This document shows, one piece after another, positions 8,781 through 12,972 of a stretch of DNA of 53,965 nucleotides. Below the pieces are notes generated by a model. It was not told where the DNA came from. It saw only the letters and a program-made list of their open reading frames with translations, and did no database searches. Made by a program: the position numbers and the translations under genes. This DNA comes from Arhodomonas aquaeolei DSM 8974 (lineage in GTDB: Bacteria > Pseudomonadota > Gammaproteobacteria > Nitrococcales > Nitrococcaceae): NCBI RefSeq assembly GCF_000374645.1, contig NZ_KB894819.1, forward strand, positions 1-53,965, given 5' to 3'. Numbering within the stretch: the first letter of the stretch is position 1; each line of letters opens with the position of its first letter.

Positions 8781-9536
8781 ATGGACGAGCATACCGATAA
8801 CGACACCGGTACCACCGAGGACTGGATCCCGGAGCCGCGCCGGCTCGCGGCCACCGCACCGCTGACCTGGGTGTGCCTCGGATGGCGCGACTTCCGCGCC
8901 GCGCCCTTCGAGAGCCTGACGTTCGGCCTCCTCGTCACCCTGATCGGGGTAATCATCGCCGCGGGGAGCTGGATCAGCGGCAACCTGCTGATCCTGTACG
9001 TGACCGCCGGCGGGTTCCTGCTCGTGGGCCCGCTGATCGCCTTCGCCCTGTATGCCACCAGCCGGGCGCTCGAGCAGAGCCAGCCCCCGTCGGTGCGCAT
9101 CTGCCTGCGCAGCATGCGGGCGAACCTGAGCAACCACGTAATCTTCGCGCTGGTGCTGCTGGTGCTCTTCCTGCTCTGGGCCCGTGCCGCTGCCATGGTC
9201 CACGTGTTCTTTCCCGCCATGGCCGAGCCCGGCTGGCGCTCCTGGGTGCCGTTCCTGGGCATCGGCAGTGCCGTGGGCGCGGTCTTCGCGGCGCTGGGGT
9301 TCGCCGGCTCGGCGTTCTCGCTGCCGATGATGATGGACCGCGGCACGGACGTGATCACGGCCGTGATCACCAGTTTCCGCGCGGTGCTGTCGAACCGCGC
9401 CGCGATGGCGGTGTGGGCGGCCCTGATCGTCGCCGGCGTGATGATCGGCTTCGCCACCGCCTTCATCGGCCTGGCAGTGACCGTACCGGTACTCGGCTAT
9501 GCCACCTGGCACGGCTACCGCGCAACGCTGGCGTAG
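8781..9536 (+). CDS. DUF2189 integral membrane protein
   Basis: A 251-residue inner-membrane protein with about six hydrophobic helices. The N-terminus is hydrophilic and acidic, followed by VCLGWRDFRAAPFESLTFG, the DUF2189 family opening. I prefer the ATG after AAGGAGGAACCCGCC; an in-frame ATG 13 codons upstream has no ribosome site and would include that sequence in the coding region. No enzymatic motif is present. Relatives often sit near cytochrome c or respiratory genes, but not here. Function is unknown. Confidence 0.85.
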   Translation: MDEHTDNDTGTTEDWIPEPRRLAATAPLTWVCLGWRDFRAAPFESLTFGLLVTLIGVIIAAGSWISGNLLILYVTAGGFLLVGPLIAFALYATSRALEQSQPPSVRICLRSMRANLSNHVIFALVLLVLFLLWARAAAMVHVFFPAMAEPGWRSWVPFLGIGSAVGAVFAALGFAGSAFSLPMMMDRGTDVITAVITSFRAVLSNRAAMAVWAALIVAGVMIGFATAFIGLAVTVPVLGYATWHGYRATLA

Positions 9537-9786
9537 CGGGCCACGGTGAGCGCCCTTCGGACGTATCCGGCACCTGCTCACGGATGACACCAGGGCGTTA
9601 GCCCTGGCGATACGGAACACGGATCACGTCGCACGCGGCCGTTCGTGGCCTGCAGCATTTCGATATCGTGGGCAGCCCGGCGGGCTCCCGGACGGTCGGC
9701 CGCTGACAGGCAGCCGCCCTACGGGGAGGCCCCGCGGCGAAGCTGTGCGACAGCCCGGAACGAGCGACGGGGAAGGCGGACCGGGC
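9537..9786. other. Intergenic stretch with no supported gene
   Basis: Only a short hairpin is seen (CCAGGGC, GTTA, GCCCTGG at 9590-9607, no T-tract), possibly the weak end of the DUF2189 transcript. A minus-strand open frame across this part has no ribosome site and crosses the small-RNA terminator, so I do not call it. Confidence 0.5.
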
Positions 9787-9815
9787 AAAAAAATGCCGGC
9801 CCGTGAGGGCCGGCA
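9787..9815 (-). terminator. Rho-independent terminator of the candidate small RNA
   Basis: On the minus strand TGCCGGCCC, loop TCAC, GGGCCGGCA gives a perfect 9-bp stem followed by seven T. No protein gene lies directly upstream of it, and the porin copy further up has its own terminator at 10014-10038. Confidence 0.9.
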
Positions 9816-9929
9816 GCACGAGAGCTACGGGGAAATAGGAGACGCGCCCGCTGCAAGGACACCCACCCAGGTCAGCAGCGGGCGCGCGGGATGAGTCGAG
9901 GCGAACTGCCACCAATCCCCGATCTCTTC
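9787..9929 (-). ncRNA. Candidate structured small RNA, about 143 nt, oxygen-regulated
   Basis: The segment has its own promoter (CATAAT -10) and FNR/ANR-type box upstream and a strong terminator at its end, without a credible reading frame. Between them is a perfect 12-bp stem, CGCGCCCGCTGC with GCAGCGGGCGCG (9843-9886), with a 20-base loop. The stretch between this stem and the terminator reads UCUCCUAUUUCCCC, unpaired and complementary to AGGAG-type ribosome sites, as expected for a seed region. The T7 tail would suit Hfq binding. The architecture recalls FnrS-type small RNAs, but I recognise no sequence family. The neighbouring porins are natural candidate targets. Confidence 0.55.
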
Positions 9930-9935
9930 CCGGGA

Positions 9936-9980
9936 ATTATGGAAACATCCCGGGGATGCCGCCGCCTTGATCCAGGTCAA
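9936..9980 (-). promoter_or_regulatory. FNR/ANR-type box and -10 element
   Basis: Minus strand: TTGACCTGGATCAA (9967-9980) matches the FNR consensus TTGAT-N4-ATCAA with one substitution. CATAAT (9936-9941) follows 25 bases after the box. A start near 9929 puts the box centre at about -44, close to the -41.5 of class II FNR promoters. No -35 hexamer is present, as expected for activator-dependent promoters. On the plus strand nothing downstream of the box could be its target. Confidence 0.6.
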
Positions 9981-10013
9981 CGAGCACGCATTGGGTGTAT
10001 CGGCTGCGCACGC

Positions 10014-10038
10014 AAAAAGCCCCGGCGCCAGCCGGGGC
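10014..10038 (-). terminator. Terminator of the truncated porin gene
   Basis: Minus strand: GCCCCGGC, loop TGGC, GCCGGGGC, then five T. It lies 34 bases beyond the porin stop codon. Confidence 0.88.
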
Positions 10039-10071
10039 GAATGTCATCGATCTCGTTGTTGTTGTTATGCC

Positions 10072-11076
10072 CTAGAAGACGTACTGGGCCGCCACGGAGA
10101 TGCGATTCGCGTCGCCGCGATCGTCGCCGTTCATGTCGTCGGCGCTGTAGTACGCGTACTCGATGCCGTAGGTGACGCGCTCGACCGGCTGCCACATGTA
10201 GTTCAGGAAGGCGTTCTCGTGGACCTCGTCGGTGCCGGCCTCCTCGGCGTCGTCGATGTCGGTACGGCCGTAGGAGAGATTGATCGTCCCCGGCCCGGCG
10301 TCGACGCTGACGCCCACGGTACCGCCCCAGGCACCGACGGTCTCGAGATCGCCGCCGTCCCAGTAGGCGTCCGGGGCACCGGAGCGGTAGAGGTAGCTGC
10401 CCGCGCCGTCGAGGTAGTTGATCGCGCCGTGCACCGAGACGGCACCGAAGTCGTAGGAACCGGCGGCGAAGGCGCCGTAGCCCGTGACGTCGTCGTTCTC
10501 GCCCGCGTCCTCGACCTGGCGCACCAGACCGGCAAACGAGTAACCGAAGTTACCCGCGTTGCCCTCATAACGCGCGGTGAAGGCAGGCAGGCTGTCCTTC
10601 GCGCCCGTGGCGCCGGCGGGTGCCGAACCGTCGCCGTCGGCGATCTCGGACTGCGGGTCCTCGACGGCGACGGAGAAGTCGCCCACGGTGTAGCGGAACT
10701 GCGCCAGGCGGGACTGATAGCCGGCGTCACCCGCCAGGCCGCCGAAGTCGATCTTCGGCGTGGTCCCCACGAAGCTGTTGTAGTTGGACCACGTCTGGCC
10801 GGCGAGCAGCCCGTTCCAGGTGCCGTAGGCGTGGCGCAGCCGGAAACTGCCCCCGCCGTTGCCACGGAAGTCACCCTCGATCCGGGTCACCAGGTCGCTG
10901 CCGGACATGTCGGTCGCCGTCTGGAAGCCGATGCGGCTCTGGCTCGCATCGAGGTCCGTATAGCCGTCCGGGGCATCGTCGTCATCCGTCAGCCCGGCGA
11001 ACCCGCCACCGGTGGCGTCGCCGATGTTCTCGTCGAAATCGTACGACATTCCTCCTGGGTTCTGAACGATGCGCAA
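10072..11076 (-). pseudogene. DcaP-like porin copy lacking signal peptide and first strand
   Basis: Closely similar along its length to the intact porin next door, ending in the same SVAAQYVF outer-membrane C-terminus, with GFQTATDMSGSDLVTRIEGD and RLRHAYGTWNGLLAGQTW intact. Homology begins abruptly at MSYDFDE, which corresponds to residue 47 of the intact precursor, so the signal peptide and first beta-strand are missing. The open frame extends only nine codons further to a TTG. An AGGAGGA lies directly against the internal ATG (11049), too close for normal initiation. This looks like a deletion that fused the ribosome site to codon 47. The body has no stops or frameshifts, so the loss is recent or the product has another use. 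Confidence 0.7.
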
Positions 11077-11135: not shown

Positions 11136-11305
11136 TAAACGTAAATGAAACCAACATGAAATACAACAGCCATATTACAACCCGTCGCCAACATCCGCTG
11201 AGCGGACGACGGCACCGGCCGGCAGGACACCACCGCTGAGGGACAGATAAAGAGACGGAAAAGAAGAGAGAGACGGAGAGAGAGCAGGACGGAGGACCGG
11301 AAACG

Positions 11306-11378: not shown

Positions 11379-12518
11379 TTAGAAGACGTACTGCGCGGCG
11401 ACGGACACGCGGTTCGCGTCCGCGTCATCACCGTTGTCGGCCTCGGTCTTCCAGTAGGAGTACTCGATGCCGTAGGTGACGCGCTCGACCGGCTGCCACA
11501 TGTAGTTGAGGAAGACGTTCTGGTTGGTCTCCGGCGTGGTGTAGCCCGCGCTGCTCACGTCGTCGGAGTCGTCGACCTCCACACGGCCATACGAGAGGTT
11601 CACCGTACCCGGACCCGCGTCGGCACTCACGCCCACGCTGCCACCCCAGGCACTGACGGTCTCGAGGTCGCCGTCGGCCTCGATGTAGGCGTCGGGCGCG
11701 TTGAAGTCACTGTAGCCGGACTGGTAGAGGTAGCTGGTCGCACCGTCGACATAGTTGACCGTGCCCTGGAAGGAGAAGGCACCCATGTCATAAGAACCGG
11801 CGACGAAGCCACCGTAACCCATGGCGTCGTCGTTCTCCTCGGCGTCCTCGATCTGCCGGACGATACCGGCGACGGAGTAGCCGAAGCGACCCTGGGAACC
11901 CTCGTAACGGGCGGACAGCGCCGGGAGGGAGTCCTTCTTGTAGTCGTCGCTCGTACCACCGGCAGCCTGGGAGTAGATGTTGGTCTGCGGATCCTCGAGG
12001 GCGACGGAGAAGTCGCCGATGGTGTAACGGAACTGGGCCGTGCGCAGCTGGTAGCCGGCGGTGCCCGCCAGGCTGTTGAAGTCCAGCGTCGCGGTGTTGC
12101 CCACGAAGCTGTTGTAGTTCGACCAGGTCTGACCGGCCAGGACGCCGTTCCAGGAACCGTAGGCATGACGCAGGCGGAAGCCGCCACCGCCGTTGCCGCG
12201 GAAGTCGCCCTCGATGCGGGTCACGAGGTCGCTGCCTTCCATGTCGGTGCTGGTCTGGAAGCCGACGCGGCTCTGGGTCGCGTCAATATCGCTGTACCCA
12301 TCGGCGTCCTCGTCGTCGACCAGGTTGCCGAAGTTGCCCTGGGTCGCGTCGCCGAGCTGCTCGTCGACGTCGTAGGACATCTTGCCGATGGCGTAGCCGT
12401 AAATGGACACGGTGGTGTCACCGGCCTGGAAGTCCACGGCCGCGGCCTGACCGGCGGCGGCCAGCGCCAGGGCGGAGACGGTGCCGATCGCGGCACCCTT
12501 GATGATATGACGAGCCAT
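11379..12518 (-). CDS. DcaP-like outer-membrane porin
   Basis: A 379-residue precursor. The signal peptide MARHIIKGAAIGTVSALALA, then AAGQAAA, is cleaved around A27, followed by VDFQAGDTTVSIYGYAIGKM. The body has the DcaP-family features RVGFQTSTDMEG, LVTRIEGDFRGNGGGGFRLR, HAYGSWNG and AGQTWSNYNSF, acidic loops, and a terminal SVAAQYVF recognised by the BAM complex. The start ATG has AGGAGGGAG 7 bases upstream; an in-frame ATG 11 codons earlier covers that site and is rejected. DcaP-type porins form trimers that pass dicarboxylates and other anions, but the substrate here is unknown. It is monocistronic, with its own terminator and a truncated paralogue downstream. Confidence 0.93.
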   Translation of the reverse strand: MARHIIKGAAIGTVSALALAAAGQAAAVDFQAGDTTVSIYGYAIGKMSYDVDEQLGDATQGNFGNLVDDEDADGYSDIDATQSRVGFQTSTDMEGSDLVTRIEGDFRGNGGGGFRLRHAYGSWNGVLAGQTWSNYNSFVGNTATLDFNSLAGTAGYQLRTAQFRYTIGDFSVALEDPQTNIYSQAAGGTSDDYKKDSLPALSARYEGSQGRFGYSVAGIVRQIEDAEENDDAMGYGGFVAGSYDMGAFSFQGTVNYVDGATSYLYQSGYSDFNAPDAYIEADGDLETVSAWGGSVGVSADAGPGTVNLSYGRVEVDDSDDVSSAGYTTPETNQNVFLNYMWQPVERVTYGIEYSYWKTEADNGDDADANRVSVAAQYVF

Positions 12519-12972
12519 GCTGACTCCCTCCTGATAGCGGTTTGCGTTCAAAACGATCAGATTGCACTGCTGTTGTTTGCGTGCAACACGCCAGGTCCGT
12601 CACCCGACAGAGGGGAGTATAGACCAAGAGGTTCACCTTTTTGCAACATCTTTCTTCGCATTTTGGTGTAATTCGTTGCGCTGACACCACACCCCAACCC
12701 CGAAACGTTACGGACGGTTACAGGCTGCCCCACTGACTCCCCTCGCCTGCTGTTGCAGAAACGCAACCATCGCGGGCACCCGCCGGCCATCGGACACGCC
12801 CGGCATGGATTGCGATATCGGTGACAGGCTTTAGAATCACGGGTTTGGCTCCGGCCGGGGCGCGTGCGGCGACGGCACGCGGGGGCCAGCACCGGCGGGA
12901 CGTCCCGGGCGGGCGTGGCGCTGGGGCCATGGTCTATAACGATTAAGACGACAGTGTTAGGGGGTTCCGCCC
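12519..12972. promoter_or_regulatory. Porin / liv intergenic region with TGTTGCA motifs
   Basis: A gene-free region between the porin and livG, which diverge. It holds the porin promoter (12616-12646), several TGTTGCA-like heptamers in either orientation (near 12589, 12641 and 12751) and the dyad GTTGCAGAAACGCAAC (12752-12767). On the liv side a possible -10 TATAAC lies at 12935-12940. The A/T-rich part (12620-12690) contrasts with the surrounding GC. Confidence 0.5.
12616..12646 (-). promoter_or_regulatory. Probable porin promoter
   Basis: Minus strand: TTGCAA, then TATACT 19 bases later. With GCAAAA as the -35 the spacing is 17. The predicted leader is about 90 nt up to the porin start, and the -35 overlaps one TGTTGCA motif, so a regulator bound there would affect initiation. 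Confidence 0.45.

Follow-up and report, generated by a model that had tools for sequence, protein, structure and literature searches.

Between a plus-strand DUF2189 gene, which ends at 9536, and a minus-strand porin-like gene, which ends at 10072, Arhodomonas aquaeolei DSM 8974 has a gene-free gap. The question is whether this gap holds the gene of an oxygen-controlled small RNA, as a preliminary description of this DNA had proposed. We examined it in the window (the whole stretch of 53,965 nucleotides that was analysed), in the rest of the genome, and in the genomes of relatives. Along the minus strand of 9787-9980 we found an FNR-type box and the hexamer CATAAT, then a leader and a hairpin (12-bp stem, 20-nt loop), and finally a pyrimidine-rich linker and a terminator; every element named in the preliminary description is present at its position. 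An oxygen-controlled small RNA is also the best reading of the locus: Fnr is encoded, its boxes are enriched, and the unit has no ATG frame and a terminator of its own.

From the position of the -10 element, the transcript is predicted to start at 9931-9929 (minus strand) and to run to 9787 (9930-9787 for a start at 9930), giving a small RNA of about 143-145 nt. It contains no ATG frame. Frames starting with GTG, TTG or CTG end within 17 codons or pass through the terminator; the longest is a TTG frame of 105 aa (9915-9598) that crosses the terminator; it matched nothing in Pfam (E up to 1) or in plasmid records. On the minus strand, the intrinsic terminator consists of a 9-bp stem (9815-9794) with a 4-nt loop, followed by seven T (9793-9787), and was identified both from the fold and in a terminator scan, which gave two terminator-like sites in 9500-10150 against 0.3 expected. 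Since the upstream truncated porin has its own terminator (10038-10019, minus strand, from the same scan), the small RNA unit is separate from it. As in FNR/ANR-activated small RNAs, this is a non-coding unit with its own terminator.

The predicted promoter consists of the box TTGACCTGGATCAA (9980-9967) and, after a spacer of 25 nt, the -10 element CATAAT (9941-9936), which matches TATAAT in five of six positions, all on the minus strand. No -35 hexamer was seen at normal spacing, and a promoter scan gave no sigma-70-type site in 9500-10150; a missing -35 is as expected, because the promoter would be activator-dependent. Starts at 9931-9929 would put the centre of the box at -42.5 to -44.5. 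Among the 23 FNR-activated promoters of E. coli whose start is known, 19 have their site at -41.5 +/- 4 nt (PMC3688515, in the excerpts used here), a range that includes the box centre calculated here from a predicted start. For that predicted start, the unit has an FNR box at the Class II position before its -10 element.

The whole 3.96-Mb genome was searched with the box consensus TTGAYNNNNRTCAA, using the reversed pattern as control, and 19 sites were found against 2 for the control. Neighbouring genes were examined for 15 of the 19 sites. One box precedes ccoN (757 bits, cut-off 583), with a 21-nt spacer before GATAAT, compared with 25 nt at the candidate. The identical 14-mer TTGACCTGGATCAA occurs at C8:82250-82263, next to a gene of the NarK family (its 216 bits fall short of the cut-off of 312), and another box precedes the gene of a CCP/MauG di-haem protein; the neighbours of the remaining examined sites had, by eye, no evident link to oxygen. 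When a box was required to be followed by six T at 126-186 nt, the genome yielded only the candidate locus and a stretch of T within the NarK-type gene, with no match for the control. Fnr itself is encoded (283.5 bits against a cut-off of 228), at one of six Crp-type HTH loci, and a profile search found an Hfq gene above its cut-off. The sequence elements, the genes of the regulator and the chaperone, and the enrichment of the box are direct observations; the presence of Fnr and Hfq, the 19 boxes against 2, and the sites at ccoN and the NarK-type gene lead us to read the locus as an FNR-activated small RNA. Three further Crp/Fnr-type proteins (L189, L190 and L192), with N-terminal cysteines by eye, are candidate readers of such boxes.

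The RNA is predicted to fold with a z-score of -3.6, and none of 200 shuffles was as stable. Its main hairpin is a perfect 12-bp stem (arms at 9886-9875 and 9854-9843, minus strand) with a 20-nt loop. Perfect inverted repeats of at least 12 bp (loop 3-25) arose in two of 500 dinucleotide shuffles of 9537-10072. Such repeats occur at seven distinct places of the window (15 rows) compared with 0-2 rows per whole-window shuffle (n = 10), so that the hairpin by itself is not rare in real sequence. The linker that follows (TCTCCTATTTCCCC / UCUCCUAUUUCCCC; 9842-9829, minus strand) is the proposed seed. It had been described as single-stranded, and in the predicted ensemble for a start at 9930 this is true of one part only: UCUCCUAUU is mostly open (unpaired 0.71-0.96, its first U 0.15), whereas UCCCC is mostly paired, UCCCCG being unpaired at 0.11-0.19 and pairing mainly with the leader. 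Pairing is possible between the leader segment CGGGGA and UCCCCG, and the start base decides which minimum-energy fold results, the seed being closed for starts 9924-9929 and open for 9930-9935. We considered a leader acting as a built-in switch of the seed; of 1000 shuffled leaders, 313 did no worse in pairing with the linker, and we therefore do not claim such a switch, although the pairing remains a caution on the seed.

As a sequence of the anti-Shine-Dalgarno type, the linker could bind the start regions of many genes. We ranked possible targets by the duplex energy of the linker with the start regions of 46 window genes called by a GC-position heuristic; several of these calls are probably spurious, and single ranks are rough. 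The porins, which had been put forward as targets, do not stand out: the intact copy (start 12518) ranks 20th of 46 at -19.9 and the truncated copy 33rd of 46 at -14.9. Over all 46 start regions, the linker averages -18.6 against -18.9 for shuffled linkers, and 118 of 200 shuffled linkers are as good. As to the porins themselves, the copy next to the unit (10072-11076) has AGGAGG one base before an in-frame ATG and is 71% identical to its neighbour (11379-12551), to which it aligns only from residue 56; lacking the first 55 residues of its paralogue, it is probably a remnant. A long pyrimidine-rich tract lies on the minus strand at 11230-11300, just beyond the intact porin's terminator-like hairpin.

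Across the whole genome, the 14-nt anti-seed, allowing up to two mismatches, matched at 17 places including its own locus, against 10 for the reversed pattern. Among the 16 near-matches outside the locus, only C18:15243 falls by eye at a likely ribosome site, where 12 of 14 bases are complementary across AGGGAAAGAGGAGA; near several of the others there is an ATG or GTG, but these matches lie inside longer open frames. The first 60 residues of the protein at C18:15243 match HTH_3 with 21.1 bits, where the cut-off is 23. If the small RNA were FNR-activated, restricted to the genus and of recent origin, and its linker masked the ribosome site of this helix-turn-helix regulator, it would mean that loss of oxygen rewires a second regulator. 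We regard this version as very improbable: given 10 control matches against 17, chance explains the match at C18:15243 equally well, and it is a lead only.

Lack of conservation in relatives had been named among the findings that would refute the small RNA. In the set of relatives, A. aquaeolei is the only member of its genus. A DNA search of the 58 other genomes (59 with its own), a set with no second genome of the genus, found no homologue: every genome gave some match at E up to 10, and the best foreign match had an E of 2.9e-4 over 24 bases. We also built a covariance model, R1, from this one sequence given twice; because such a model reaches near relatives only, its failure to find homologues is a weak result. 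Of the same 59 genomes, 25, its own among them, gave R1 matches at E up to 1, in 33 rows altogether, and among 24 of these 33 rows a box of 9-10 of 10 letters within 200 nt upstream was present only at the own locus, the best foreign box having 8. Of four matches at E up to 0.01 in 369 genomes of the class, one is the candidate itself, and we saw no convincing homologue in the 368 other genomes, at least seven of which are also among the 58. The best foreign match (L211, 1501-1586; 39.3 bits, E 3.7e-7) lies in a distant genome of the class. It shows a stem, followed by the linker CUAUCCCCUC and a terminator, with no box of at least 8 letters in the stretch examined; it may be an analogue, or a distant relative with a different promoter. 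On 15 chosen loci (three of nine and 12 of 80 from two locus sets), R1 gave 13 weak matches, the best at 16.8 bits.

A scan for a looser form of the box plus a terminator in 119 loci and the window matched, besides the own locus, at L040, L047, L054, L099, L100 and L108; on reading, none of these six holds a like unit, though L100 has a terminator. In 54 genomes of the order, an FNR box followed by six T at 126-186 nt was found in 13 genomes, and at 85-145 nt in 10 genomes, each with one control match; by eye, many of these are T runs in genes, and none is like the RNA of the window. As for synteny, in Ectothiorhodospiraceae bacterium WFHF3C12 the DUF2189 gene is followed by a methyltransferase-like gene, with no such unit, and in genome G005 the porin is followed by an isochorismatase-like gene (both neighbours named by eye). 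Plasmid records contained no DNA match to the candidate. Conservation thus failed to appear in the genomes searched; since no second genome of the genus is among them, the absence of homologues is only weak evidence against the small RNA.

Our searches also brought up other RNA candidates in relatives. Four of the 14 g2 genomes of the family (G015, G017, G019 and G018; L219-L222, at about 1500-1640) share a conserved pyrimidine-rich candidate of about 58 nt, in which TATACT or TATAAT is followed, in most rows, by UUCUCUCUCUCCUCCUCUU, and which has a terminator containing eight T; an Rfam search at E up to 1 gave no match. An FNR-like box lies about 50 nt before the -10 element, within the last codons of the upstream gene in three of the four and overlapping its stop by four bases in the other; coding explains much, not all, of the conservation of this box. 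By their sequence, these look like FNR-linked small RNAs. Two genomes of family f4 carry CUCUCCUCC RNA candidates (L137, 1508-1573, and L142, 1524-1589) with weak matches to the Rfam family anti-hemB (32.5 and 27.3 bits, gathering score 49.5). Finally, at L216 and L218 (1500-1640), FNR-type boxes are followed by hairpin-like stretches and T runs within 85-145 nt; these are possible further FNR-linked short transcripts, by eye unrelated in sequence to the unit of the window.

We hold it to be probable, with a good measure of doubt, that the locus encodes a real, lineage-restricted, FNR-activated, base-pairing small RNA, an orphan without known target. The findings on the linker bear on its mode of action: a real Fnr-controlled small RNA might act through its G-rich loop or through a protein instead of the UCUCC linker, or the transcript might be young and non-functional. 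Three findings fit this account: at local start regions the linker pairs no better than chance, the genomes searched gave no convincing homologue, and UCCCC is largely paired with the leader. We nevertheless find it unlikely, given the open UCUCCUAUU near a strong terminator, which is the usual layout of base-pairing small RNAs. The identity of the regulator can be questioned too, as half-sites of the Crp/Fnr type are not specific to one regulator of the group, and several of the six Crp-type HTH loci have N-terminal cysteines by eye; a paralogue might read the box, with nitrate, NO or something else as the signal. This we consider quite improbable: the same 14-mer stands beside the NarK-type gene and a related box precedes ccoN, and such genes are typical of Fnr/ANR.

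The whole arrangement might also be an accident, in which a box and an inverted repeat, both stray, lie by a terminator of read-through RNA, with no dedicated transcript. Neither the box nor the terminator is likely to arise by chance, the parts stand in the correct order on one strand of a gene-free gap, and the porin upstream ends in a terminator of its own, all of which argues against an accident. A chance origin would agree with the lack of conservation among the genomes searched, with a spacer that, at 25 nt, is not optimal, and with the seven places in the window that have a perfect 12-bp inverted repeat. We give a chance assembly a slim prospect of being right.

For the FNR-activated small RNA that we prefer, we infer transcription, control by Fnr, use of Hfq, and repression through pairing. 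When oxygen falls, Fnr would bind the box at about -43 and activate the -10 promoter, which has no -35. The independent gene would then yield an RNA of about 144 nt with a 5' leader, a stable hairpin, a partly open pyrimidine-rich stretch and a Rho-independent terminator. Its UCUCCUAUU(UCCCC) would most likely pair with the purine-rich ribosome-binding regions of mRNAs unneeded at low oxygen and repress them; Hfq would probably take part, at the U-rich 3' end. If real, the candidate adds an FNR-controlled small RNA to a gammaproteobacterial family for which Ectothiorhodospiraceae bacterium WFHF3C12 is the nearest named relative among the genomes searched. A brief literature check showed, among the papers listed, none on small RNAs of this group. 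If real and without homologues, it would be an example of a fast-evolving output of FNR. The candidate alone opens no long-standing question; as a finding it is of an ordinary kind and has some worth as a candidate gene.

With respect to known families, a search of the whole window with Rfam 15, FnrS included, gave no match at gathering score, in line with the earlier statement that no known family is recognised; the best weak matches reach about half of that score. When 301 bases were searched permissively, 12 matches came out at E up to 10. Highest among them was ncS16 (RF02866; 25.4 bits, E 0.005, gathering 48), followed by Betaproteobacteria toxic sRNA (RF02278; 24.1 bits, E 0.007, gathering 50). 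Like the candidate, both have a pyrimidine-rich CUCC linker before a GC-rich terminator; several pairs of the first stem of these models are broken in the candidate, however, and that stem differs from its 12-bp stem. The match to sX13 was weaker (18.3 bits, short of the gathering score of 50). In the excerpts of PMC3771888 used here, the Xanthomonas sX13 directs C-rich motifs against G-rich ones close to starts; it carries three C-rich loops and is independent of Hfq. Its likeness to the candidate lies in the use of a C-rich motif against G-rich start regions, which for the candidate is a proposal.

The closest parallels in design come from small RNAs under FNR or Anr. The enterobacterial FnrS has its FNR site at -42.5 (PMC3688515) and represses genes that are dispensable without oxygen (PMC8139620), according to the parts of both papers used. 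FnrS and the candidate, with its predicted start, are both independent small RNAs with an FNR site at the Class II position, and the candidate's 12 permissive Rfam matches do not include FnrS. The Anr-controlled SicX of Pseudomonas aeruginosa is a low-oxygen small RNA with an Anr motif upstream and a Rho-independent terminator, and promotes ubiUVT translation (PMC10247376, from the sections used). On paper, the candidate is like SicX in its upstream box and its Rho-independent terminator; SicX acts on ubiUVT, whereas the candidate has no such known target. FnrS and SicX, as far as the parts of these papers describe them, make small RNAs driven by FNR or Anr a known kind, and on paper the candidate would work like them.
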